NCBI GenBank assembly: GCA_003649085.1
Contig: QMQV01000008.1
Span: forward strand, 1 to 29,943
DNA: 29,943 nucleotides
From: Thermoproteota archaeon
GTDB taxonomy: Archaea > Thermoproteota > Methanomethylicia > Methanomethylicales > B66-G16
Direction of reading: 5' to 3'
In this document: piece by piece, positions 5,237 through 27,640 of the stretch
How positions within the stretch are numbered: position 1 is the stretch's first letter
How the letters are laid out: each line of letters opens with the position of its first letter
Program-made: the position numbers and the translations under genes
The notes under the pieces: generated by a model
Told to the model about the DNA's origin: nothing
Databases searched by the model: none
The model's input: only the letters and a program-made list of their open reading frames with translations

Positions 5237-6436
5237 GTGTTTAAGCTGGGTAAGCTCGTTATAGGGATAACTTCTACAGTTCTATACCTTGGAATAACGA
5301 GCTTCTTAACAGATGTCAGCACAGAAGCTATGTTAGCGCTTCTCCCAGCGTATCTCCTCATGGTCTTAAAAATAGCTCCTGAGCTTGTAGGAGTTATCGA
5401 GGGCATAGCTGAGTCGGCAACAGCTTTTCTAAGGCTTTTCTCAGGCGCGTTAGCTGACATCAAGGGGAAGAGGAAGCTGATTACAACAGCTGGATATGCT
5501 CTTTCAAATGCTGTTAAGCCGCTAATGGGCCTTGCCTACACTTGGGATTCCGTCTTAACGATAAGGGTCTTAGATAGGGTAGGTAAGGGCATTAGGACCC
5601 CTCCAAGAGACTCCATGATAGCTGATGCCTCAGTTGAAGGGAAAGTTGGTAGGGCGTTCGGCGTCCATAGGACATTAGACCAGCTTGGTGCCGTAATTGG
5701 CCCATTAGTGGCGTTTGCGCTGCTTCCCTTTCTAGGATATTCTGGCGTCTTCTTCTCAATAGCTATCCCGGGGGGATTGGCGGTTTTAGTCATAGCTTTA
5801 TTTGTCAAAGAACCTCCTATGAGCGCTAAGCTTTCAAGGGAGCGTTTCGTAAAAGGCTTTTCAAAGCTATTTAAAGGCTCCTTTGCTTACTACATGGCTT
5901 CCGTAGCAGCTTATTCGCTTGCCTCCTTCAGCTTCATATTCGTAATCTACAGAGCATCTGAATTAGCTGGCTTAGATCCGTCTACGACAGTCTTGCTCTA
6001 TGCATTAATTCAAGCCTTTCACGTAGCTTCAGGCATACCAGCAGGGGAGCTATTCGACAGGGTTGGGGGAGTTAAAGCTGTCGCGATAAGCTATCTAACC
6101 CTAACGCTATGCTACCTAATGCTCTCCCTTAAGCTACCAGCTTTAATGGTTTTCCTAGCATTAGCAGTATATGGCTTACACAAAGGCTTTATCGAGACCA
6201 CGCAGAGAGCAATAATACCCTCACTCGTAGACCCAAGGTATAAGAACTCAGCATATGGGCTTTACAACACAATGGTCGGAGCAGCAATCCTGCCGTCGAA
6301 CATCTTAGCAGGCTTTCTATACTCAGCCTTTGGGGGGTGGGCTGTTTTCATCTTCGGTACAATATCCTCGCTTTTAGCGACGGCACTTCTACTGCCTATC
6401 ACCCGACGAAAAGCTTCAACTTCTATAACGGCATAA
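5237..6436 (+). CDS. Major facilitator superfamily transporter
   Basis: 399 residues with about 12 predicted membrane helices. The loop between helices 2 and 3 has the MFS motif A form GALADIKGKRK, and helix 4 begins with the subgroup motif DRVGKGIRTPPRDSMIADAS. That second motif marks a set of bacterial and archaeal MFS proteins usually annotated only as multidrug- or metabolite-efflux carriers. The start GTG 5237 is preceded by TTAGAG, a weak Shine-Dalgarno. The C-terminal 21 nt overlap the 3' end of the convergent glycosylase gene. Substrate cannot be inferred from sequence or neighbours. Confidence 0.88.
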   Translation: MFKLGKLVIGITSTVLYLGITSFLTDVSTEAMLALLPAYLLMVLKIAPELVGVIEGIAESATAFLRLFSGALADIKGKRKLITTAGYALSNAVKPLMGLAYTWDSVLTIRVLDRVGKGIRTPPRDSMIADASVEGKVGRAFGVHRTLDQLGAVIGPLVAFALLPFLGYSGVFFSIAIPGGLAVLVIALFVKEPPMSAKLSRERFVKGFSKLFKGSFAYYMASVAAYSLASFSFIFVIYRASELAGLDPSTTVLLYALIQAFHVASGIPAGELFDRVGGVKAVAISYLTLTLCYLMLSLKLPALMVFLALAVYGLHKGFIETTQRAIIPSLVDPRYKNSAYGLYNTMVGAAILPSNILAGFLYSAFGGWAVFIFGTISSLLATALLLPITRRKASTSITA

Positions 6437-7372
6437 GTCGCTTAACAGGCATTTTTCGCAGCTCGGCTTTGATGGTTTACAATAGCTTCCACCGTGAATA
6501 TAACATACTGTCTGAAACCAGCCTGCTAAGTCTCCAAGATCTCTTATGAGCAAAGCCCTTAAACACCTAGATGAGTTTGGGCAAACATCTAAGCCCAGTT
6601 CGTCAGCTTCAGCGCTATTGCACGCGTATTTGATACATAGCTGTTTTACAGGCTCGACAAACTCTTCATATAAGCCGAGCCTCTTCACCATAGTCTTAAG
6701 ATGCGTGTCGCACGGTATTGTCTTAGGAGACCTGAAGGTAAATAAGATAAGTGCATCAGCTACTTTTGGGCCGATACCCCAACACCTTAAAAGCTCTCTT
6801 CTGAGCGCTGAAGGACTTAATTTAGCAACTTGCTTATCGAGCCCCCTACTTAAGAAGTCTCTTAAAGTTAGCTTAAGCTGGTCAAGCTGATAACTTGTCC
6901 CGGCAAACCTTAAATCTGAGTGGGCAATCTCCTCTAAGTCACCATCAAGCTTCTCAAAAATACGGCTACACCACATTAAGACAAACCTCCCGTAGCTAGT
7001 CCTCTTAGACAAGACAACTGAAGTTAAGATGTAGTTGAAGTCTCTAGGAGATATCGATAGTCTAGCCCCTCCATAAGCTTCATAGAGCCTATCAACAACC
7101 TTCTTAATCTTACCGTTTTTGACTAAGCTGACATCTGGATAATACCATAAGCCACTTTCAAGCAAAACCTCCTCCTTAAAAACCTCCTCGTTGACATGTC
7201 CATCTACTTCAGCTATCAACAAGCTATTAGCTTGCATGAGCCTTAAACCTTTTAAAAAGCCAAATTTCTTAATCCAATGCCTTGGACCAACCCTAACATA
7301 TAAGCTTGAGACAAATGATGGGGGAAGAGTCAAATCTAAATCGTATTTCTCGGCGCGAACTTCAACTCTCAA
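6416..7372 (-). CDS. HhH-GPD DNA glycosylase/AP lyase with a 4Fe-4S cluster
   Basis: Base-excision repair enzyme. The N-terminal ~100 residues form a beta-rich domain like those of AlkA/OGG-type proteins. The helix-hairpin-helix region LLRCWGIGPKVADALILF (194-211) carries Lys203, the Schiff-base lysine of bifunctional glycosylases, and PCDTHLKTMVKRL has the catalytic Asp222. Four cysteines at 298, 305, 308 and 314 (C-x6-C-x2-C-x5-C) match the endonuclease III/MutY iron-sulfur loop exactly. The mix of a long N-terminal domain with the FeS loop is less common than plain Nth. Substrate (8-oxoguanine, thymine glycol or uracil mismatch) is not determined. TTG start, 4 nt after a strong GGTGAGG. 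Divergent from the THUMP-SPOUT gene. Confidence 0.85.
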   Translation of the reverse strand: MRVEVRAEKYDLDLTLPPSFVSSLYVRVGPRHWIKKFGFLKGLRLMQANSLLIAEVDGHVNEEVFKEEVLLESGLWYYPDVSLVKNGKIKKVVDRLYEAYGGARLSISPRDFNYILTSVVLSKRTSYGRFVLMWCSRIFEKLDGDLEEIAHSDLRFAGTSYQLDQLKLTLRDFLSRGLDKQVAKLSPSALRRELLRCWGIGPKVADALILFTFRSPKTIPCDTHLKTMVKRLGLYEEFVEPVKQLCIKYACNSAEADELGLDVCPNSSRCLRALLIRDLGDLAGWFQTVCYIHGGSYCKPSKPSCEKCLLSDLCRYRS

Positions 7373-7444
7373 CGGACCTCACCGAGCAAAGCAATTATCT
7401 CTAAAAACCAGCTATACCTTTTTCGTGCATAAGAGGTCTTAAAG

Positions 7445-8536
7445 TTGGGCTGCGACTTCGACTTGCTAGTTAAGACGCCACTGGACATGGAGAACGTAGC
7501 AGCAGCCCATATTGAAGAGCTAGAGGAAGGTGTAGTAGCCATAGCGAAGCCACATGGCTTTAAGGGCATAGTGTTAGTTAAAGGTTCAAAAGATAAGCGT
7601 GTACTAGCTGAGAAGGTTAAAGCTAACGTACCGGAAGCTGAGCGCATCATCTTAGCTGAGAAGTGCGTAAGCTCAAAGCTCGAGGACATCGTGCAGGCCG
7701 CGCTAGAAGTAGCTAAAAACAACTTGTCTCCAGGAGACACGTTTGCTGTCAGAACCGTTAGGAGAGGTGCGCAGCCCTATACGAGCGTGGATGTCAACGT
7801 GAAAGCGGGCGCTGCAATAAAGGAGGCGTTAAACAACCCCGTTGATCTTGAGTATCCTAACAAAGTCATAGCTATCGAGATTGTTAAGGACATCGCGTTA
7901 GTAGGCGTAATTAAAGAAGAGGAGCTTTGGAGAAAAGAAAAGCCTGGCAAATACCCAGTCCTACCCTATTTAAACAAGATAGCTGTAGTCCAAATGCCAT
8001 ATCTAGGTCCATTAGACGCAGCTAAGACAATGGGGGTTAGAATAGGTAGAGAAGTGCAGACCTTTGAGGTAAAGGAGCTCATAATAGCTTTTATCTCAAA
8101 AGTCGATGCGGAGCAGCTCAACGCCTTCTTATCAGGAGTCTTTGAGGGGATAAGGTCTAGATACGAAATTCAAAAAAGAAGTTATGCTAGGAAACCTCAG
8201 AAAGCCGAAGTCTACGTACAAGACCTATACCAGCTTGTAAGAGAAAGGCGTGGTGAGCCCATAATAGTACTTGAACCTGAAGGAGATCCGATAACTTCAG
8301 TTTCAGATCGAATAGCTGACATCTTCTTCAGCAAACACGAAAGAGTAAACGTGTTAATTGGCTCTAGAGAGGGAATACCGACAGGAGTTTACAGATTTGC
8401 GAACCTAGTAGTCGACATATGTCCCGGCGTCACCATATCAACAGATTACGCAGCTGCAGCCGCGCTAATTGCTATATCGACAGTGTTGGAGGAGAAGTTA
8501 CAGGAAAAAGCTGTTAAAGAAGTGGTGTTCGAGTAA
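7445..8536 (+). CDS. THUMP-SPOUT protein, putative RNA methyltransferase
   Basis: 363 residues. The first ~170 form a THUMP RNA-binding domain: a ferredoxin-like N-terminal part, then GDTFAVRTVRRGAQPYTSVDVNVKAGAAIKEAL, which is the classic THUMP strand-helix pattern. The C-terminal ~110 residues resemble a SPOUT alpha/beta-knot domain: IIVLEPEGDP, VNVLIGSREGIPTGVYRF, then ICPGVTISTDYAAAAALIAI, where the knot binds S-adenosylmethionine. This two-domain arrangement is found across archaea; the modified nucleotide is not clear to me. TTG start with GAGGT at 7433-7437, 7 nt upstream; a CTAAAAACC TATA candidate lies at 7401-7409. The next gene on the same strand starts 57 nt later. Confidence 0.8.
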   Translation: MGCDFDLLVKTPLDMENVAAAHIEELEEGVVAIAKPHGFKGIVLVKGSKDKRVLAEKVKANVPEAERIILAEKCVSSKLEDIVQAALEVAKNNLSPGDTFAVRTVRRGAQPYTSVDVNVKAGAAIKEALNNPVDLEYPNKVIAIEIVKDIALVGVIKEEELWRKEKPGKYPVLPYLNKIAVVQMPYLGPLDAAKTMGVRIGREVQTFEVKELIIAFISKVDAEQLNAFLSGVFEGIRSRYEIQKRSYARKPQKAEVYVQDLYQLVRERRGEPIIVLEPEGDPITSVSDRIADIFFSKHERVNVLIGSREGIPTGVYRFANLVVDICPGVTISTDYAAAAALIAISTVLEEKLQEKAVKEVVFE

Positions 8537-12205: not shown

Positions 12206-12282
12206 AACTCTCTTAAACTCCCCCTTTATTTTCCGCAAGATTTTTACCCACAGCTCTATTATCTTTATAACGTGATAGGGTT

Positions 12283-12552
12283 ATGATGAAAGTCAAAGTC
12301 ACTTTCTTAGGAGATTTAGCTACAATAGCTAAGACGAAGAATACAGAAGTAGAGCTTAGTGAAGGCTCAACGTTAAAAGACCTATTTGCTCATTTAATAT
12401 CAAGGTATGGCTCCCAGCTTAAGGAATTCTTAGACTTTTCATCTAAGAATAGAGCTTTCGTGATGATTAACTCAAGAGTTGCCATAACTGATGACGTAAA
12501 GCTGGGCAATGAAGATAACATCGTGATCTCGCCGCCAATGGAGGGAGGCTAG
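12283..12552 (+). CDS. MoaD/ThiS-family ubiquitin-like sulfur carrier
   Basis: 89-residue beta-grasp protein ending in the required Gly-Gly (PPMEGG). The C-terminal thiocarboxylate donates sulfur to cyclic pyranopterin to make molybdopterin, after adenylation by a MoeB/E1-like enzyme that is not in this window. The segments VTFLGDLATIA, STLKDLFAHLI and INSRVAITDDVKLGNEDNIVISPP follow the MoaD fold. Its place right after the AOR gene suggests dedicated pterin supply for that enzyme, a common archaeal pairing. ATG 12283 and ATG 12286 are equivalent starts. A CTTTATAAC element at 12263-12271 may give it its own promoter. The stop overlaps the convergent citrate-synthase-like gene by 4 nt. Confidence 0.88.
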   Translation: MMKVKVTFLGDLATIAKTKNTEVELSEGSTLKDLFAHLISRYGSQLKEFLDFSSKNRAFVMINSRVAITDDVKLGNEDNIVISPPMEGG

Positions 12553-13979
12553 CGTAGAGGCGCTCTACCACCGTATTTCTCCCAAATCTCAGGCAGATGC
12601 TTCTTAACTAGCTCTAACATCTCCTCGTCACTTATCGAGAGGCTTCCTTCCTCAAACTTCTTCGAAACTTCCTCGAAGATCTTAGCTACGCCAGGAGTCG
12701 TCTTATCTACGCGTTCACTGCCCTTCAAGCTGAAGTAGTAGTTTACCCAAAACGCGACACCAGCTATCCCAGAGTATGGAGTTATGCCGACTCCAGGAGG
12801 TACTCCGAGAAGCTTCTCGGTGTCGAATGGTAAGTACATTTCGACGTTCTTTAAAGTGCCATCAGCGTGTATACCAGCTCTTGTTATGTTAAAGTTTTTG
12901 CCTACTATTGGATAATAGGGAGGTATCTTATACCTAAGCTCCCTTTCATAATATTTAGCAGCCTCCGTTATCGCCTTAGTATCCATGCCGTCAAAGCCTC
13001 CCTTAATAGATGCGTATATGAAGACCATGGCTTCAAGAGGCACATTACCTGCTCTCTCCCCTATGCCGAACAATGTTGTGCTATTCGAAGCAGCTCCGTA
13101 AAGCCAAGCAGCTGTAGCGTTGACTACGCCAAAGTGTAAGTCGTTATGTCCGTGAAACTCAAGCCACTTGCTAGGCACACCTGCTAAGTGGCGTAATACC
13201 CACATAATCTTCGGGATACTCCTAGGCAGAGCTGCCGTGGGCCAGGGTAACCCGACGCCCAGCGTATCTGGCACCCTTATCTTAACTGGCAAGTCATATT
13301 TTTCAGCTAGCTTCATGAGCTTTCTAGCAAATGGCACAACGACGCCGAGCACATCTGCTCTAGTGCAATCCTCGACGTGAGCTCTCATGGCTATGCCAGC
13401 TTTAAGCCCCTCTTCGACAACTTCAAGATACTTCTCGATAACCTGGCTTCTGCTTAATCCCTTAAACTTGTAGAATATGTGGTAATCGCTAATGGAAGTT
13501 AACATGCCAGTTTCTTCAAGTTTAGCTTCTTTAACAGCTTTAAGATCTTCCTTGCTAGCTCTAATCCAACCAGTTATCCTAGGGTTATTATAGCCGAGCT
13601 GCTTTAACCTTTCAACAGCCTCCTTATCCCTGCTAGTGTATAGGAAGCATTCCGTGAAGTTTATCTTACGATTAGGTCCGCTAATCTTATTTAGAAAGCC
13701 ATAGATCTTGATGATCTGCTCAACAGTATAAGGTTGTTCCATAGCTTGCTGGCCATCTCTAAACGTAGTATCTGAAATCCAGATTTCATCTGGTATTTCC
13801 ATTGGCACGACAATTCCATCCCAGACAGCTTTTGGCGGGAGATCCCATGGAAATATCTCCTTATACAACTTGGGCTCCTTAACATCCACAACTTCGTAGT
13901 CAGGGTAGTCAACAGCTTCACTTTTAATAGCTTTAAGCAGCTCCTCCTTCTTTACATAATTTTCAGCCAAAGACCTCAC
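12549..13979 (-). CDS. Re-citrate synthase-like enzyme (IPMS/homocitrate synthase superfamily)
   Basis: 476-residue DRE-TIM metallolyase that would condense acetyl-CoA with a 2-oxoacid. Metal and active-site motifs are SDTTFRDGQQ (69-78), HGHND (276-280), GIGERAGNVPLE and NITRAGIHADG. The N-terminal part KEPKLYKEIFPWDLPPKAVWDG, then TGWIRA, TGMLTSISDYHIF and HVEDCTRADV, follows the pattern I know for Re-citrate synthases of anaerobes rather than leucine-pathway LeuA, and there is no LeuA regulatory domain. I infer citrate synthesis from oxaloacetate; homocitrate synthase or another 2-oxoacid condensation remains possible. The start is GTG 13979 by the longest frame; TTG 13970 after GGTGAGG is an alternative. 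It is convergent with moaD and lies downstream of the ferredoxin on the same strand. Confidence 0.8.
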   Translation of the reverse strand: MRSLAENYVKKEELLKAIKSEAVDYPDYEVVDVKEPKLYKEIFPWDLPPKAVWDGIVVPMEIPDEIWISDTTFRDGQQAMEQPYTVEQIIKIYGFLNKISGPNRKINFTECFLYTSRDKEAVERLKQLGYNNPRITGWIRASKEDLKAVKEAKLEETGMLTSISDYHIFYKFKGLSRSQVIEKYLEVVEEGLKAGIAMRAHVEDCTRADVLGVVVPFARKLMKLAEKYDLPVKIRVPDTLGVGLPWPTAALPRSIPKIMWVLRHLAGVPSKWLEFHGHNDLHFGVVNATAAWLYGAASNSTTLFGIGERAGNVPLEAMVFIYASIKGGFDGMDTKAITEAAKYYERELRYKIPPYYPIVGKNFNITRAGIHADGTLKNVEMYLPFDTEKLLGVPPGVGITPYSGIAGVAFWVNYYFSLKGSERVDKTTPGVAKIFEEVSKKFEEGSLSISDEEMLELVKKHLPEIWEKYGGRAPLR

Positions 13980-14086
13980 CGCAACGTTTTGAAGCTTTAA
14001 GTCTTATCAGTTTAGAATTTGCAGTTAATAATCTTTATGCACTGTCCAAGAAGCTAGATTTAAACACTTTAAACTTTCTCATCAAT

Positions 14087-14093
14087 AAAAAAA
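14087..14093 (-). terminator. T-rich terminator after the ferredoxin gene
   Basis: On the minus strand a run of seven T lies about 32 nt after the ferredoxin stop, preceded by a shorter T5 run. Archaeal polymerases terminate at such runs without a hairpin. Confidence 0.5.
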
Positions 14094-14124
14094 GGTGAGT
14101 TTTCAAAAATGGCGCTTCTCGCTT

Positions 14125-14328
14125 CTACTCCGTAACCGTTATTGCTTGCGTTGGGCACTGTGAGACGCAAGCCATGCACATTATGCATGCGTCGTTGTTC
14201 ACAACGACAGCTTTCTTCTGCCCTGGATACTCCGGTAACTCTTTCATTTCAAAGACTCCAGATGGGCATACGCTTACGCAGATTTCATCTCCATTGCATT
14301 TCGCGTGGTCGACAGTCACTTTAACCAT
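14125..14328 (-). CDS. Two-cluster ferredoxin with Asp in the first cluster motif
   Basis: 67-residue low-potential electron carrier. The second motif CIMCMACVSQCP is a standard CxxCxxCxxxCP. The first reads C11-N-G-D14-E-I-C17-V-S-V-C21-P: the second ligand position is Asp14 instead of Cys. This is the same substitution as Asp14 in P. furiosus ferredoxin, and a similar Asp occurs in Sulfolobus-type ferredoxins that carry a 3Fe-4S cluster. The protein therefore probably holds one normal 4Fe-4S and one Asp-ligated 4Fe-4S or 3Fe-4S cluster. It is a natural acceptor for the nearby AOR, though it lies on the opposite strand. The ATG has GAGGTG 8 nt upstream, and a minus-strand TATTTAAGT TATA box lies at 14365-14373. 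Confidence 0.9.
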   Translation of the reverse strand: MVKVTVDHAKCNGDEICVSVCPSGVFEMKELPEYPGQKKAVVVNNDACIMCMACVSQCPTQAITVTE

Positions 14329-14523
14329 AAAATTCGCACCTCGCCTAGGGTGTTGTTCCCACTTACTTAAATAACCTGCGGTTTAAGCAAAGTCTTAATT
14401 AACTAAACTAGGGCTTTGATTCGGCTAAGCTTTTTGAAATAGCCTATAGCCATCACACTAGACATAAGCTTTATTAATGTTGCAAGAATACTTGGCGGGG
14501 AAGCGTTGAGGACGTGTTAGTAT

Positions 14524-15384
14524 ATGTTTGCAAAGCGTTTCGCACATTTAACTAGCGTACATCCCTGCTATGGGGATAAAGCTCACTTTACCTATGCTAG
14601 AATACATTTACCTGTTGCTCCTAGATGTAATATCCAATGTAACTATTGCATAAGGTCTATAAACAAATGTGAGTATCGACCTGGTGTAGCATCCAGATTG
14701 TTAGCTGTTGAAGATGCAGTTAAAAGAGTTGAGCAAGCTGTTAAACTTTATAAAAATAAACTTAAGGTTGTAGGCATAGCTGGTCCTGGCGAGCCTTTAG
14801 CAAATGAAGCGACTTTTCAACTACTTAAGCAAATCAATGAGAAGTTTCCAAACTTAATAAAGTGCATTGCGACTAATGGCTTACTACTTCCTGATAAGGC
14901 GAGCTTACTAGCAGATTTAGGTGTAAAAGCTGTAACAGTAACTGTAAATGCCATTGACGAACATGTAGGAGCTATGATATATGAATGGGTTTTTCACAGG
15001 GGCAGAATCTTGAGGGGTGTTGATGGAGCAAAGGTCTTAATTGAAAATCAGCTTAAAGGCATTGAAGAAGCTTATCGCGTTGGTCTCGTAGTTAGGGTTA
15101 ACTTCGTGTTAATACCTAGCATAAACGATAAAGAGGTCACGAAAGTTGCTAAAGAAGCTGCTAGTAGAGGGGCAGTTATGATGAACATCATCCCGTTAAT
15201 ACCCTTGCACAAGTTTAAAGACTTGAGACCCCCTACGTGCGAGGAGCTTAGAAAAGCTAGAGATGAAGCTGAAAAATACATTCCACAGTTTAGGCTTTGT
15301 AAACAGTGTAGAGCTGATGCATGTGGCATCCCCGCGTTCGAAAAAGCCCCTATGTTAAGCATTGGTAAGCGTCTTCACGGCTAA
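14524..15384 (+). CDS. NifB-like radical SAM protein
   Basis: NifB fuses two 4Fe-4S clusters and inserts carbide to make the 8Fe core of nitrogenase cofactor. This 286-residue protein has the NifB set: HPC (13-15), AHFTYARIHLPVAPRCNIQCNYC with the SAM cluster at Cys35, 39 and 42, Cys49 followed by E-Y-RPGV, AGPGEPLAN (86-94), ATNGLLLPD, PLIPLHKFKDLRPPTCEEL, and the C-terminal CKQCRADACG (Cys259, Cys262). No NifX-like domain follows, as in short archaeal NifB. The region after Cys42 differs slightly from canonical NifB (CEYRPGVAS rather than CVNESRPGVTS), so activity may have diverged. No nifHDK, nifE or nifN is visible. The ATG at 14524 has a TTTATTAATG promoter element at 14470-14479. The stop overlaps convergent trm5 by 4 nt. 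Confidence 0.85.
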   Translation: MFAKRFAHLTSVHPCYGDKAHFTYARIHLPVAPRCNIQCNYCIRSINKCEYRPGVASRLLAVEDAVKRVEQAVKLYKNKLKVVGIAGPGEPLANEATFQLLKQINEKFPNLIKCIATNGLLLPDKASLLADLGVKAVTVTVNAIDEHVGAMIYEWVFHRGRILRGVDGAKVLIENQLKGIEEAYRVGLVVRVNFVLIPSINDKEVTKVAKEAASRGAVMMNIIPLIPLHKFKDLRPPTCEELRKARDEAEKYIPQFRLCKQCRADACGIPAFEKAPMLSIGKRLHG

Positions 15385-20576: not shown

Positions 20577-23500
20577 ATGTCGAGGAAAAGCCTTTTAATA
20601 ACAATAGCCGCCATCACGTTAACATTTTCCTTCCTCCTACCCTCTTCAGCTACGTGCTCCGAGCCTCTAGAGTACGGCCCCTACAATGAGCAATACTTCT
20701 TCTACTACATTTTCTGGATACCATGTAAAACTGCAGGTGATCAAGGAATAGCTGTTAAAGTACTTTACCCAAAACAGCCAAGATATGAAGATGGTGCTCC
20801 AATAGCAATTTTCGTAGCAGGCGGGGTCAAACCGGGTTTTCTAGGCTTCTATAGTCCAGACTTTAACCCGTATGGCATGATATGGATAACGTTTATCTTC
20901 CCAGGCGGACGGCAAGTCGTCAACTTACCAGACTACGGAGAAGTTGTGGTTAATAGTGGAGGAACCTACGACTACAGAGGCAATGCTTGTTTTCAAGCAC
21001 TTAAAGCCGTAATTGACTTCGCATCAGGTAAAATAGCTAATACAGCTGGCAAGAAAATCTCAGACTACGTTTCATATCCCGTGCTAACTGACAACATAGG
21101 TCTTTACGGCTCATCATATGGAGGGGTTACAGCAATATTAACTTTATTGAAGTATGGAAGCGAGCTCAGTAATGTGAAATATGTCGTATTCTATGAAAGC
21201 CCAGCTACAAACTTTCTTACTACAACAGATTTAGGTAGGGTGGGAAGCGATCCTGATCCTGAGGTAGACGCTGACGGTGACGGGCTTCCATGGAATGACT
21301 TCAAGAATCCAAACTACCAAGCTGAGACGTGTAATGAGACGTGGTGCTACATAAACTTCTCAACACTGCGTTATGACGCTGCATTAGGCTTTTACCTAGA
21401 TAACAACGGCAATGGTCAGCTAGACTACGTTGGAGAACCTCCACTAGTTTCAACAGATATCGATCATAGTGGAGCAATAGAAAGTGATGAAGACTTCCTC
21501 CTCAGCTACTGGTCTGTTGTGATTAATGGTGTGGAGAGAAAAGCATACTCGTATCTTGTTACCAAAGCAGCTGATGAACTAGGCTTAATGAGCGATGTTC
21601 CTGAAGGAGTGTTGAGGCTTGATGAAGCATATGATTTTTGGTATATGAGAGATATGGGCTTTCACTACAATGAAATTGCTGAAAACGTTTCTTGGATTAA
21701 AGTCATGCAACTGGGTTTCTTAAAAGAGCATATGTGCCCAGCACCAGATTATCCTAACATCGTGGTTAACTATAATGCTTTCAAGAAGAGAGGCTTTTGG
21801 ATTAGGTTAAACCCTGACAAAGCTTACCTTGACAACGTCACGGGTAGAGATGTGGACTGGCAAGACAACGATGCCAACATAGAGATCAATTTCGACAACA
21901 TCAGGGATCACGTGATTTCAGACCCAATATTAAACGGCGCTGAGCGTAAGCTGATAGAAGTCGCCAGCATGCTTGAAATGGCAGACCGTGTCTACCACAA
22001 CGACTGGAGCGCAAACCTAGATGTTGTCTTAACGCAAGCTAAGCCGTCAATTGAAGAGGAGGTTACTGAAATCCCTGAAAACGTGTGGGTTAACATAGGT
22101 CCAGATGGAGGAGACAACTACTTCGTCTTCGTCACCTCAAAACACACCGTGATAGCAGCTACAGCAAATTCAGCTTTTAGAAGCACTGATGGAGCAGCTA
22201 CTTGGAGTCGCATAACAGAGGAAAATCTCATCGACATAGGTTTTACAGCGATGGCTGAAGTAGATGGTGTCCTCTACGCTGGAGTTGGTGTAGGCAGAGG
22301 TCTAATGGTGAGCTACGACGATGGCTATTCATGGTCTAAGATAGAGCTAGGAGTTGAGGAACTTGAAGGAGGCGAGCTTTACGATATAACCTCCATAGCT
22401 GCTGTAAGTACGAAGCAACTCTACTTAGGCTGTAAGACGCTGAAAGCTGGTTCGCTTGAAGTCGTTTACGAAGTCATATACGATGACCAAAGCTCTTCGT
22501 GGAAAGTCATCGAACATAAGTTTCCTGAGGAGTTAGCGTTTCCTGCTCAGCAGGTTGTTGTGAAGCTTCGCTACGACCCAGATTTTCACGGCGAGCCTGT
22601 CCTCTTCGTCTCACGTTATCCTGATGGGCTATACATTGTCAAGAACCTCGATGGAGAATGGTCTTGGCAGAAGATTTTCGATGGAAACACAACAGCAATC
22701 GAGGTAGCTCTTGATCAAGACGTGGTCTATTTAGGTACATACGATGACTGGATTTACAGAGGGGTTTACGAAGATGGCAGCTGGTCCTGGCAGAGATTAA
22801 ATCCACTCGAAGGTAGAGAATCCGAGTTTGAAGTAGATACGCCTCCGATAATATCTGACGTAAAAGTAGACCCCTATAATTCAAACAGAATTTGGTGGTG
22901 TTCACCAGGCAGATTAGCCAGAGTCTACCCCGTAACTAAGGAACACGTAAACTTGTATGGAGTAGGTGCATGGGACCCGGATGGAAAACGCTGGTTACAC
23001 TCCTTTGTCCACTATGGCTGGGGCACATATGTAGCTATTGATAGGCATGGTGAGGGAGAAAGCCCTGAAAGCTTCATGGTCAAGATAGACGGCGTTGTCG
23101 GAGCTAAAATCGCTTATATGCCATCATACTCCTTCCGCTGCTTGCTTAAAACCGAAGATGGCGGACGCACATGGCGCTCAAGCTATAACAAGCTTTATGG
23201 AGACTGCATAAACGAGGTTTCACTGCTAGATAGAGACCCTTACCCGGATGGAATAGCTGTCCTCTGCGTATCTGGAATAGAGCTTAGCTACGACTATGGA
23301 GAATCGTGGGACGACGACTTCGACCTAAACCCTGGAGGAGCTAGATTATGCTTCCCATGGCGCCTCATACCACTACCTCAAATATACGGCTACAAAATTA
23401 CGGTAGATGGCGTAGAATATCCATTGGACTTGATGGTCATAACAGGCTATCCAGGTCCAAGCCCTGAAGAAGGGACTAAAAGACATGGGCTAATAGCTCT

Positions 23501-24683
23501 CTCCTCAAGCTTTATTAAAAGCCATAGGTTGTCGACGGCCATACACCAAGGCTCTATGCAACTAACTTCAAACCCAGCTGTTTACGGCTTAGCAGTTGAA
23601 GACTGCGTTGTCCTCACACTACAAGAAGCTGGTGTCGAAGTCTACAACTTGACGAGTAGGTCAAGTTTCATTTCAAATATGGGTTTGCCTTCAAGCTGCG
23701 AGCTCTACAAAATAGCTTATGCTAAAATAGGGTCTGACGGCTGGTGGGTAGTATCTACATATGAAGGACCTCCAATACATAAGCTCGGTGAAAATGACCA
23801 TTACTTCTGGTTTGGGCCAAGTAGGATCTATAGAGCTAAAAACCTCCTTGAAAGCCGCGAAGATACTGTATGGCAGCAAATTTCGCAGAGGTATGATGGA
23901 GGCATCGTTTCACTCAATGTTAACAATCAAGGAGAGTTAATAGCTCTAGATGCCTCAGGCAAAGTGCTTTACTGTCAAGATTTTACAGCTGACAACCCAT
24001 CGTGGAAGGAGCTCCAAATACTCCTCGTTGAAGGCGGCGAACCAGACTACTACACCGACATGGAAGTTGATTGGGAAGACGGCGTAGCATTCATATCGAC
24101 TGTTGGTCACCAAGGGCCAGGAGTTTGCTATGTAAGCTTAGAAGATATTAGGAGCGGCGTGGGCGCTTTGTGTTGTCACTCGTTTAACGAGGGCTTATAC
24201 ACGAGGCTCATCAGAAACATCTTATGGTCCCCTAAGGAGAAATACCTATTCGCAGGTTCTTGGTGGAGCTCTGTTTGGAGAGTTAAAGTCAACTCTTCAG
24301 CTTTGCTACAAAAAGTTGGTGAGCAACAGCTTACGATAACCTGTCAAGTTTCTCCGCAGCAAGTAAAAGCTGGAAAGCAGGTAACGATATCTGGGCAAAT
24401 AACACCTGCTGTCGAAGGTATTCCAGTGCAGCTCAAACTTACAAAGCCGGACGGCTCTATATCTGAGGTATACGTCGAGACATCGGCTTCAGGGGCGTTT
24501 ATGCATACCTTTAGCCCAGATATGTTGGGTGAATGGCACGTGACCGTGGCTTGTGGCGTTTCAATGCATACTGCTAGCTTTACAGTTGCAGGGGTTGAGG
24601 TTGAAGTTAAGGCTGATATCAACGGAGACGGGGTAGTTAACTGGAAGGACTTCAAAATTTTAAAGTTTCTCTATGGGGGCTAG
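20577..24683 (+). CDS. Giant secreted hydrolase/Asp-box protein with interrupted dockerin
   Basis: 1368 residues. A signal peptide (1-27, KSLLITIAAITLTFSFLLPSSA) directs export. Residues about 55-480 form an alpha/beta-hydrolase-like domain with nucleophile elbow GSSYGG (Ser180). Inserted in it are acidic calcium loops: DADGDG (231-236), DNNGNGQLD (275-283) and a canonical EF-hand loop at 294-305 (D-I-D-H-S-G-A-I-E-S-D-E). Residues about 500-1245 hold Asp-box/BNR propeller repeats, for example STDGAATW (536-543), SYDDGYSW (579-586), KTEDGGRTW and SYDYGESW. An Ig-like domain (about 1252-1338) and the first dockerin repeat (DINGDGVVNWKDF) close it. The frame then stops at TAG; the second dockerin repeat lies in the next frame. 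Possible peptidase or esterase; substrate unknown. Confidence 0.85.
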   Translation: MSRKSLLITIAAITLTFSFLLPSSATCSEPLEYGPYNEQYFFYYIFWIPCKTAGDQGIAVKVLYPKQPRYEDGAPIAIFVAGGVKPGFLGFYSPDFNPYGMIWITFIFPGGRQVVNLPDYGEVVVNSGGTYDYRGNACFQALKAVIDFASGKIANTAGKKISDYVSYPVLTDNIGLYGSSYGGVTAILTLLKYGSELSNVKYVVFYESPATNFLTTTDLGRVGSDPDPEVDADGDGLPWNDFKNPNYQAETCNETWCYINFSTLRYDAALGFYLDNNGNGQLDYVGEPPLVSTDIDHSGAIESDEDFLLSYWSVVINGVERKAYSYLVTKAADELGLMSDVPEGVLRLDEAYDFWYMRDMGFHYNEIAENVSWIKVMQLGFLKEHMCPAPDYPNIVVNYNAFKKRGFWIRLNPDKAYLDNVTGRDVDWQDNDANIEINFDNIRDHVISDPILNGAERKLIEVASMLEMADRVYHNDWSANLDVVLTQAKPSIEEEVTEIPENVWVNIGPDGGDNYFVFVTSKHTVIAATANSAFRSTDGAATWSRITEENLIDIGFTAMAEVDGVLYAGVGVGRGLMVSYDDGYSWSKIELGVEELEGGELYDITSIAAVSTKQLYLGCKTLKAGSLEVVYEVIYDDQSSSWKVIEHKFPEELAFPAQQVVVKLRYDPDFHGEPVLFVSRYPDGLYIVKNLDGEWSWQKIFDGNTTAIEVALDQDVVYLGTYDDWIYRGVYEDGSWSWQRLNPLEGRESEFEVDTPPIISDVKVDPYNSNRIWWCSPGRLARVYPVTKEHVNLYGVGAWDPDGKRWLHSFVHYGWGTYVAIDRHGEGESPESFMVKIDGVVGAKIAYMPSYSFRCLLKTEDGGRTWRSSYNKLYGDCINEVSLLDRDPYPDGIAVLCVSGIELSYDYGESWDDDFDLNPGGARLCFPWRLIPLPQIYGYKITVDGVEYPLDLMVITGYPGPSPEEGTKRHGLIALSSSFIKSHRLSTAIHQGSMQLTSNPAVYGLAVEDCVVLTLQEAGVEVYNLTSRSSFISNMGLPSSCELYKIAYAKIGSDGWWVVSTYEGPPIHKLGENDHYFWFGPSRIYRAKNLLESREDTVWQQISQRYDGGIVSLNVNNQGELIALDASGKVLYCQDFTADNPSWKELQILLVEGGEPDYYTDMEVDWEDGVAFISTVGHQGPGVCYVSLEDIRSGVGALCCHSFNEGLYTRLIRNILWSPKEKYLFAGSWWSSVWRVKVNSSALLQKVGEQQLTITCQVSPQQVKAGKQVTISGQITPAVEGIPVQLKLTKPDGSISEVYVETSASGAFMHTFSPDMLGEWHVTVACGVSMHTASFTVAGVEVEVKADINGDGVVNWKDFKILKFLYGG

Positions 24684-24783
24684 AAAAGGTTCTGCTAAGT
24701 ATAAGCCCTTTGCTGATTTAAACGGCGATGGCGTGATAGATGTCGTGGACTTAGCTTTACTAGCACGCCAATACACAAGCTAA
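24675..24783 (+). other. Out-of-frame second dockerin repeat
   Basis: After the GGGGG run at 24675-24679 the +1 frame encodes ARKGSAKYKPFADLNGDG, then VIDVVDLALLARQYTS and a TAA at 24781. Removing one G joins the two frames into a normal dockerin with 33 residues between the calcium-loop aspartates, the usual spacing. There is no start codon for separate translation. Confidence 0.85.
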
Positions 24784-24823
24784 GCTTTAAGCTAAAGCTA
24801 GGTACTTCTTCAACAAGCGAAGG

Positions 24824-25927
24824 ATGGTTAAAATGCCTAAGGTCAAGTTAGCTGTTGTATACAGTGACCGTTACTTAGACTACAACTTGGGGAAAACGCA
24901 TCCGCTGCAACAAATTCGCGTAAAATTAGCTGTAGAGGAGATGGAGAAACGCAACTTCTTCAACAAGGGAGCATCTATAGTTGAGCCCAGGGAAGCATCT
25001 ATTGAAGAGCTTAAGCTTTTCCACGATGAGGACTACATAAACTACGTTAAGAAGGCAAGCGAGAGAGGAGAAGGCTTCTTAGATTATGGCGATACCCCTG
25101 CTTTCAAAGGATGTTACGAAGCTTCCTCCCTAATTGTAGGAGGCACATTAAAAGCAGTCGAGCTTGTCTTAAACAACGAAGCTGAGCATTCAATGAACCT
25201 AGCTGGAGGCTTACACCACGCTCATCCAGAAAGCGCATCAGGCTTTTGCATATTTAACGACCCAGCAATAGCGATTTCATACCTCTTAAATAGGAAGGGT
25301 GTTAAGCGGGTAATGTACTTAGACGTCGATGCGCATCATGGAGATGGGGTCATGTACGGCTTTTACAGGGATCCAAGAATCCTACACGTGGATTTTCACG
25401 AAGACGGTAGATACCTCTTTCCGGGGACAGGCTTTATAGAGGAAAACGGGGCGGGCGACGCCATCGGGCTTAAAGTCAACATACCATTTAAGCCATACAC
25501 AGGAGATGACGTTTTCATAGCAGCTTTTGATAGAATAGTGCCTAAATGCGTTGAGCTATTTAAACCAGAGTACATAATTGTGCAATTCGGCGTAGATGGG
25601 CATCGAGGAGATCCGCTAACACACCTATCTTATACAGCTAAGGCATACCATTACGCTATGACGCTAATTCACGAGCTCTCACATCGAATTTGTGATGGCA
25701 AGCTCACGGTACTAGGTGGTGGGGGCTACGATGTTAAGCGTACAGCAACCATATGGTCTATGGCCGCAGCTATTTTATTAGACTTGCCCAGGGAGGAATA
25801 CCTCGACATCTTAAACGTCGAAAGCTCTAAGTCGAGCAAAGTTATCCTGGACGAAATCGAAGGCATGTTGAATAAGCTTGAGGAATACACTGTGAAGATC
25901 TTGGAGCAAAAGGCAACCTCTCGGTGA
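24824..25927 (+). CDS. AcuC/HDAC-family deacetylase
   Basis: Zn-dependent deacetylase of the arginase-deacetylase fold, related to class I histone deacetylases and bacterial AcuC. Motifs: GGLHHAHPESASGFCIFNDPAIA (128-150, active-site His pair), YLDVDAHHGDGV (Zn ligands Asp169 and His171), QFGVDGHRGDPLTHL (third ligand Asp258), FPGTG and the Gly-rich GGGGYDV with the transition-state Tyr. All catalytic residues are present. Substrates may be acetylated proteins such as chromatin proteins or acetyl-CoA synthetase, or polyamines; the sequence does not decide. ATG 24824 or ATG 24833 can start it. The stop TGA overlaps the GTG start of the next gene, so the pair is translationally coupled. Confidence 0.9.
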   Translation: MVKMPKVKLAVVYSDRYLDYNLGKTHPLQQIRVKLAVEEMEKRNFFNKGASIVEPREASIEELKLFHDEDYINYVKKASERGEGFLDYGDTPAFKGCYEASSLIVGGTLKAVELVLNNEAEHSMNLAGGLHHAHPESASGFCIFNDPAIAISYLLNRKGVKRVMYLDVDAHHGDGVMYGFYRDPRILHVDFHEDGRYLFPGTGFIEENGAGDAIGLKVNIPFKPYTGDDVFIAAFDRIVPKCVELFKPEYIIVQFGVDGHRGDPLTHLSYTAKAYHYAMTLIHELSHRICDGKLTVLGGGGYDVKRTATIWSMAAAILLDLPREEYLDILNVESSKSSKVILDEIEGMLNKLEEYTVKILEQKATSR

Positions 25928-26565
25928 GTTCGTTGGAAGTAAGTAAGCGAAGTAAGATGAAGATAGCTTGGGGTATAACAGGAGCTGGCGATAGGCTCGA
26001 GGAATGTGTTAAGCTAATGAAAAGCTTAGCTGATAAATATAGAGATCGAGTTGAAGTCTACGCCTATATCTCAAAGTCAGGCGTAGTCGTGCTCAGACAT
26101 TATAGGTTATTGGATTACGTGAGGTCAAACTTTAAGACGTTTACAGAAATATCTGCTAATGAGCCATTTTTAGCTGGTCAGCTACAAAAAGGAGAATTCG
26201 AGTTCCTACTGATAATGCCAGCAACATCAAATACCGTAGCGAAATTAGCTGTTGGGATAGCGGATACCTTGTTAACGAACGCTGCAATAAGCGCGGTTAA
26301 AGCCTTTAAACCAGTTTACATCTTCCCCACAGATAGGGAAGAAGGCTTAATAACTACTAAGCTGCCAAACGGCAAAGAACTTGTCTTAAGAGTTAGAAAG
26401 GAAGATGCTGAAAATGTCAGAAAGCTACGTGAAATGGAGGGCTTCTACGTCTTAAACGACCCTAGAGAGGTTGAAAGCGTAATTGAAAAGCACCTCGAAG
26501 ACATCAATAGAAGAACTCTAAAGGACCTTCGTAGAGGGCAACCCACATCTCAACAAAAGCTTTGA
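25924..26565 (+). CDS. Archaeoflavoprotein (AfpA-like)
   Basis: FMN-binding electron-transfer protein of the flavoprotein/HFCD-like fold; AfpA of Archaeoglobus fulgidus is reduced by ferredoxin. The N-terminal KIAWGITGAGDRLEE and central LLIMPATSNTVAKLAVGIADTLLTNAA segments form the flavin site. The open frame begins at GTG 25924, overlapping the deacetylase stop as GTGA. ATG 25957 would start exactly at the conserved MKIAWGITG and may be the real start, which would remove an 11-residue basic leader. The C-terminal 62 nt overlap a convergent gene. A dihydromethanopterin-reductase-like (DmrB/DmrX) role is an alternative. Confidence 0.82.
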   Translation: MSSLEVSKRSKMKIAWGITGAGDRLEECVKLMKSLADKYRDRVEVYAYISKSGVVVLRHYRLLDYVRSNFKTFTEISANEPFLAGQLQKGEFEFLLIMPATSNTVAKLAVGIADTLLTNAAISAVKAFKPVYIFPTDREEGLITTKLPNGKELVLRVRKEDAENVRKLREMEGFYVLNDPREVESVIEKHLEDINRRTLKDLRRGQPTSQQKL

Positions 26566-27019
26566 TAAGCTCCTCGTTAAAGCCATTTGGCGTAACAAGC
26601 TTAGAGTATTTGAAAGGCAAGACTAAGCGGTAGTAGTGGTCGCCTTCCTCGATCTTAACCTTATCTTTAAAGCTTAAAGCGCTTAAAAATAAGTTGACTT
26701 CATCTAAGCTCATCGGGTAGCGCTTATGCTTTACCATCTTCAAGTAAAGCACGTCATCTTCTTTAACCCATATATCCTTTGACTTAAGCCTCAAATACTT
26801 CGTACTAAACCCCCTAATGGTATAAGCACAGCTATTGCCTGGAGCTAACCTGTAAATGTTAAGCTTCTTGCGCCTACCACCGTAGAAGATTATGGCTTTA
26901 ACATACTCAGCCAGTTTATGGCTTGGAAAACTAGGGTAAACACCTTTAGGCAAGGGAGCAACTTGAATACCCTTTATGCTAACCTCACGGTAAGGCTTAA
27001 GCACGAGATATGAGTTCAA
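26504..27019 (-). CDS. Protein of unknown function
   Basis: 171 residues, not recognised. It is basic, has no signal peptide or membrane segment, and is rich in alternating hydrophobic strands (KAIIFYGGRRKKLNIYRL, DDVLYLKMVKHKRY) with a C-terminal helix LIKAFVEMWVALY. Coding character is supported by the codon pattern shared with neighbours and a promoter-like TTTATAGGT at 27032-27040. The start is TTG 27019, or GTG 27004 if transcription begins about 26 nt after that TATA. The unusual feature is a 62-nt tail-to-tail overlap with the archaeoflavoprotein gene. No pair of Cys/His or other catalytic motif stands out. Confidence 0.65.
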   Translation of the reverse strand: MNSYLVLKPYREVSIKGIQVAPLPKGVYPSFPSHKLAEYVKAIIFYGGRRKKLNIYRLAPGNSCAYTIRGFSTKYLRLKSKDIWVKEDDVLYLKMVKHKRYPMSLDEVNLFLSALSFKDKVKIEEGDHYYRLVLPFKYSKLVTPNGFNEELIKAFVEMWVALYEGPLEFFY

Positions 27020-27218: not shown

Positions 27219-27640
27219 ATGAGGTTTAAACTGTTTACAGAGGAAGACGCTAGGAAATACTTGTCTAGGCTAGCGAAGGATGCGCAGGTTCCTGAGCCTA
27301 AGCTTATCATAAGCGATGAGCCGTTCAAAAACCTTCCAAGTGATGTGGACTGGGATCGTCCAGCTTTCTATAGTAGAAAAGAGAAGGCGATATACATTAG
27401 GCCAAAAAAAGTCTTTCTCCAGCTGTTATCGCTCACGAGTTTGCACATTATCTTGCAGATATCAAGGGTGAAAGGAAGAGGATGCGAATGGGAGAATTTG
27501 GCGATATGGCTGTCTTAATGGATTTAAGCCATGTCTGCCTGCCGCCTCTTTGGCACATTCAAATACTTTACTTAGCTTTTCAAATTAGAAAAAGTGTCCG
27601 TAAACTTAAATTGCTATTGAGAAGGTTAAAGAAGTCTTAG
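27219..27640 (+). CDS. Small HExxH metalloprotease-like protein, frameshifted at A7
   Basis: In the first frame a 99-residue product ends at 27518, but its last third (from VFLQLLS) looks non-coding. In the -1 frame, entered at the A7 run 27404-27410, the sequence continues as KSLSPAVIAHEFAHYLAD, with a zinc-protease HExxH motif at 27434-27448, and stops at TAG 27638. The combined product is about 140 residues: an N-terminal part MRFKLFTEEDARKYLSRL, a strand IYIRPKK, the HEFAHYL helix and a basic tail. The setting C-CA-AAA-AAA-G is a classic -1 slippery heptamer in frame; a lost A or a sequencing error would look the same. ATG 27219 follows a TAAAAAATC element about 25 nt upstream, so it is likely leaderless. 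Confidence 0.75.

Follow-up and report, generated by a model that had tools for sequence, protein, structure and literature searches.

A Dockerin Split between Two Reading Frames at a G Run in a Predicted Surface Hydrolase Gene of an Uncultured Thermoproteotal Archaeon

The Locus and Its Reading Frames

The window, that is, the whole stretch of 29,943 nucleotides analyzed here, carries on its plus strand an ORF of 1368 amino acids (positions 20577 to 24683) that comprises a hydrophobic N-terminal segment, an alpha/beta-hydrolase-like domain, a beta-propeller region, an Ig-like segment, and half a dockerin. The first dockerin loop with its helix (DINGDGVVNWKDFKILKFLY) is encoded in frame 0 at 24615 to 24674 and is followed by a run of five G at 24675 to 24679, the point at which the frame changes, and by the TAG stop codon of the ORF at 24681 to 24683. 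The second dockerin half (ARKGSAKYKPFADLNGDGVIDVVDLALLARQYTS) is found on the same strand in the +1 frame, which is free of stops from 24679 to 24780, and a TAA at 24781 to 24783, also on the plus strand, would terminate the complete dockerin. Frame 0 of the window sequence reads DINGDGVVNWKDF, and the +1 frame reads DLNGDGVIDVVDLALLARQY. The two dockerin loops are 33 residues apart, and 40 bases separate the TAA from the next ORF, which starts at 24824 and belongs to the histone-deacetylase family. The encoded product consequently lacks the last 34 residues, corresponding to half a dockerin. The first-pass annotation had described the same anatomy, and its G run, both stops, protein length, and loop spacing all hold.

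Several lines of evidence locate the frame change. The +1 frame is closed by a stop at 24661 and frame 0 by the one at 24681, which box the change into about 24664 to 24680. The codon-usage log-odds of frame 0 amount to +27.1 over 24516 to 24674; over 24684 to 24780, the +1 frame reaches +15.9, as compared to -10.8 and -4.2 for the other two plus frames and +6.4, +5.2, and -11.0 for the three reverse frames. When the two frames were searched separately with a custom profile made from the dockerins of five relatives, frame 0 scored 25.5 bits (profile positions 1 to 22) and the +1 frame 40.4 bits (positions 20 to 54), and the two matches join inside YGAR, between YG and AR. Nothing else above 0 bits was found with this profile among segments of at least 12 amino acids in the six frames of 24540 to 24830. 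With Pfam Dockerin_1 (PF00404), for which the cut-off is 22.9 bits, the protein as encoded scores 14.6 bits, over profile positions 35 to 53 only, whereas the two frames joined score 42.7 bits over positions 3 to 54. The earlier claims that the second loop is preserved in the +1 frame and that removal of one G restores a duplicated dockerin are therefore borne out. A dockerin divided in this way over two frames is far beyond chance.

Architecture of the Encoded Protein

The alpha/beta-hydrolase-like domain covers about residues 30 to 490 and the beta-propeller region about residues 495 to 1240, and structure models were available for both. The N-terminal model of 474 residues has a pLDDT of 90.3, and its top Foldseek matches are alpha/beta hydrolases, with low TM scores by query of 0.19 to 0.35. 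The motif GSSYGG (residues 178 to 183), which has the G-x-S-x-G form of a nucleophile elbow, is invariant across an alignment of eight sequences. Fold and nucleophile elbow together predict an alpha/beta hydrolase. At the level of Pfam, Peptidase_S15 scored 14.7 bits against a cut-off of 23, and every match for the hydrolase and propeller parts was below its cut-off. The protein had been called a giant exoenzyme, a name of which the hydrolase fold is supported by prediction, whereas the enzyme status is presumptive.

The model of the middle region (754 residues; pLDDT 78.9, with several stretches below 50) resembles propeller proteins. Its best structural match is the GH74 enzyme 6p2k (E 1.8e-13, TM 0.43, 12% identity), and the likeness of the propeller region to the GH74 fold ranges from TM 0.42 to 0.49 at 12% identity. 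Since unrelated propellers come next after 6p2k, the region is likely GH74-like in fold only; at the sequence level, neither Pfam (up to E 1) nor the PDB sequences gave a GH74 match.

Relatives and Their C-Terminal Ends

A database search with the window protein (P0001) returned 23 relatives, of which P0002 to P0013 align over most of its length and the 11 sequences P0014 to P0024 over about the first third (31 to 38% of the query). In P0014 to P0020, the hydrolase region is joined to propellers of the PQQ/aryl-sulfotransferase type (precomputed Pfam PF13360 and PF14269). Three of the 12 long relatives end in two-repeat dockerins, P0002 and P0003 above the Pfam cut-off and P0011 below it at 19.2 bits; the dockerins of the two best-scoring homologues are complete. 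Another eight (P0004 to P0010 and P0012) have a hydrophobic C-terminal stretch, with a best 19-residue mean of 2.47 to 3.34, and after it further residues, some of them basic; P0013 is a partial sequence. With the C-terminal 331 residues as the query, P0025 (52%) and P0026 (51%) were retrieved, followed by other dockerin proteins, and no sequence from the same species. P0025 and P0026 are fragments, the former with a two-repeat dockerin and the latter with none.

The first-pass annotation had proposed an alignment of homologues and considered that these might naturally end at the first loop. That was the case for none of the four dockerin-bearing homologues (P0002, P0003, P0011, and P0025), all of which possess both repeats. 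In L057, another protein encoded by genome G276, the second loop is the only canonical one.

In a tree of 15 sequences (the window protein, P0002 to P0013, P0025, and P0026), the window protein groups with P0002 and P0003 with a support of 81/84, which falls short of the starred level. One side of this tree contains P0009, which bears an anchor, together with the dockerin bearers, and the other side contains the remaining anchor bearers. C-terminal types and tree together suggest that dockerin and hydrophobic anchor are alternative devices for holding these proteins at the surface. The dockerin-free P0026 sits on the dockerin side, and in some cases the tail may thus have been lost otherwise than by a recent accident.

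A relative of the propeller region is also present in genome G010 (contig C60, 18829 to 20749; L016 and L028), where it is divided into two pieces, one of which contains both a TAG and a TAA; it is perhaps another broken copy.

Dockerins and Cohesins in Related Archaeal Genomes

The source archaeon is uncultured, thermoproteotal, and distant from all genomes compared. Its aldehyde ferredoxin oxidoreductase had eight matches at E 1e-200 among 398 genomes of the phylum, the best at 62% and all in the 40-genome class of G155, which was taken as the nearest class. The FEN1 of the window, searched in this class only, had matches in 37 of the 40 genomes, the best at 59% (G266). Dockerins were detected in five of these 40 genomes and cohesins in four, and three genomes have both, namely, G276 (L050, L055, L057, and L061), G197, and G291. 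In G276, cohesin and dockerin share one frame of 361 codons.

Dockerin-cohesin binding has been verified for archaeal modules, and such modules are reported to exist outside cellulosomes (PMC9012536). Like the proteins described there, the archaeal extracellular protein of the window carries a type I dockerin, and the likeness extends to the cohesins of the nearest class, but the window dockerin is incomplete as written.

Close relatives of the gene itself were sought in several collections. The genome contigs searched contained seven related loci, none of them near-identical, and the viral contigs searched gave four pattern matches and no relatives. With P0001 or P0003 as the query, matches were found in 16 of the 81 genomes in the class of G001 (E 0.001; mostly Ig-like or otherwise partial, that in G001 itself being nearly full length), in two of the 40 genomes in the class of G155 (E 1e-20), and in seven of the 398 genomes sampled from the phylum (E 1e-60); none of the matches in these three sets is close enough for a comparison of G4 with G5. 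The protein database listed no relative above 60% identity; P0001 itself is also unlisted, so a grouped near-identical sequence might be hidden there. Another window protein, P0051, was listed.

Comparison of the Junction DNA

The dockerin-bearing orthologues were compared as proteins, and the DNA comparison makes use of L055 of G276, the dockerin of a different protein. In L055, TATGGGGCTAGA is read in frame at the position of TATGGGGGCTAGA in the window, and the L055 codons at the junction are AGC TAT GGG GCT AGA GCT GGT, i.e., a run of four G at the place equivalent to the G5 of the window. At the protein level, SYGARQG of the homologue P0003 corresponds to YGARKG spanning the break in the window. 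From the in-frame G4 of L055 and this correspondence with P0003, the ancestral run was most likely G4, to which one G was added in the window. Among 78 loci totaling 301,530 bases, the 11-mer TATGGGGCTAG of the junction was found once in L003 as well as in L055, and is thus not unique; the copy in L003, on the opposite strand or outside a dockerin, was not assigned to one.

Origin of the Extra Base

The first-pass annotation had listed four choices, namely, a sequencing or assembly error, a recent inactivating mutation, phase variation, and programmed +1 frameshifting. All are formally open, but the last two have gained no positive support. A recent frame-breaking insertion in the cells, from G4 to G5, is given about an even chance, and a real strain-level mutation is considered somewhat more likely than a consensus error. 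The original gene would have encoded a secreted or surface protein composed of the alpha/beta hydrolase, the beta-propeller region, the Ig segment, and a complete C-terminal dockerin. One G would then have been gained in the G4 run between the dockerin repeats, too recently for the second repeat to have decayed, and would be present in the cells rather than in the consensus alone. Translation would now stop after one calcium loop, and the product would presumably fold without a working dockerin, the remaining half being unlikely to dock. By comparison with the dockerin- or anchor-bearing relatives, loss of the dockerin would probably cause the protein to be released instead of kept at the cell surface.

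The age of the break was approached by a simulation of neutral decay that gives a rough bound, as it starts from the present tail, uses chosen conserved positions together with an open frame, and assumes an indel rate. An intact second repeat survived in 12.5% of cases at 0.05, in about 5.6% at 0.07, and in 1.7% at 0.1 substitutions per site. The earlier argument from the preserved downstream repeat is upheld by these values, and an old inactivation is ruled out by the decay estimate.

The closest precedent is the chitinase PF1234/PF1233 of Pyrococcus furiosus, an archaeal secreted-type hydrolase gene broken by one extra nucleotide, in which, as in the window gene, the part downstream of the break is well preserved (PMC3575233). 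As reported there, the insertion was confirmed by re-sequencing of a new culture, and the authors concluded that the gene had mutated recently or was perhaps subject to programmed +/-1 frameshifting. As this case shows, such an extra base in an archaeal hydrolase gene can be genuine. The break in the chitinase separates catalytic parts and is confirmed from cells, whereas the window gene has lost half a dockerin and is known from assembled sequence alone. According to PMC3711429, an indel mutation is a likelier cause than a sequencing error when a singleton has its frame break close to the 3' end; the same source generally expects BLAST-validated singletons to be sequencing errors, which counts against a real insertion. 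If the insertion is real, the locus offers a natural experiment on the role of the dockerin in an archaeal surface protein with dockerin- or anchor-bearing relatives.

A consensus or assembly error, by which the cells would have G4 and a complete dockerin and the extra G would be an artefact, is a serious possibility that falls short of being probable. It is favored by a second repeat that is kept with no sign of decay and by the unbroken state of the two best-scoring homologues, and it would mean that automatic annotation of the contig misses a dockerin. Runs of five or six identical bases are nevertheless frequent in the 24 listed ORFs of the window, where 83 were counted including the dockerin G5 (23 of them G or C), and the other 82 accompany open frames. 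Of the 24 distinct ORF products, 21 match a family and are untruncated except at the window edges, the three without a family match being encoded at 26504 to 27019, 7369 to 7740, and 6416 to 7372. These 82 runs and 21 untruncated products give no sign of a high rate of homopolymer errors.

A further homopolymer-associated frame break 2.7 kb away speaks for such an error. A small HExxH metallopeptidase-like gene (27219 to 27640, plus strand) has its halves in different frames, with a first part beginning MRFKLFTEEDARKYLSRL and a second part containing HEFAHYLAD; the change of frame falls within 27401 to 27516, a run of seven A (27404 to 27410) being the most likely site. P0049, with 86% identity to this gene, is intact. 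P0050 agrees with the window at 22 of 22 residues in a non-coding frame and at 75 of 76 in the tail, which points to near-identical DNA, and its protein implies an A run that differs in length from that of the window, a difference that may be biological or technical. This gene is not clean proof of a technical error, since P0052 is also broken near the same place and all three frames of a homologue in G182 contain stops, so that the gene may be decaying in nature as a true pseudogene. Its break settles nothing for the dockerin.

Phase variation, in which slippage at the G run would reversibly switch the protein between docked and free forms, is quite unlikely, and a population harboring both G4 and G5 alleles, with slippage toggling the surface hydrolase between docking and release, is very unlikely. 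The break does coincide exactly with a homopolymer, and the tail is undamaged in its other frame, but the run has only five bases, whereas the criterion for long hypermutable tracts of contingency loci in PMC3711429 is repeats of at least seven. Six G6/C6 runs elsewhere in the window sit in listed ORFs, the best-scoring homologues are intact, and G5 is the one allele seen. According to PMC2831843, the tracts that are overrepresented are mainly A and T tracts close to 5' ends.

Programmed +1 ribosomal frameshifting, or decoding of GGGG as a quadruplet, would yield some complete protein and is extremely improbable: a tRNA sitting on GGG could pair again once shifted by +1 (TAT GGG GGC TAG), and GGG GGC is present in the ORF once, at this site, but the site is not conserved (P0002 and P0003 are continuous, and L055 is in frame with G4), RNA folding of three stretches is unremarkable (z -0.62, -0.01, and -0.72), and six other in-frame GGG-G sites of the ORF must be read as triplets, which excludes quadruplet decoding as a general mechanism. 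Archaeal recoding is known from the -1 shift in a Sulfolobus fucosidase and has been reported as +1 for one haloarchaeal virus (PMC8211752). Like the window gene, fucA1 of Sulfolobus solfataricus is an archaeal hydrolase gene in which two frames are joined at a homopolymeric stretch; it has a -1 shift, an A-rich slippery heptamer, a stem-loop, occurrence in two strains, and a demonstrated product, as opposed to a +1 shift at a G run with no supporting signal in the window (PMC8211752).

The extra G therefore has the look of a commonplace, recent slip of one base, whether real or made in the assembly, rather than of a new switch. Neither of these two readings alters general ideas on decoding or gene regulation. 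Below the cut-off of the ORF list, two small intact frames were recognized by eye in the window, one with a MoaD-type look at about 12280 to 12550 (plus strand) and one ferredoxin-like at about 13979 to 14530 (minus strand).
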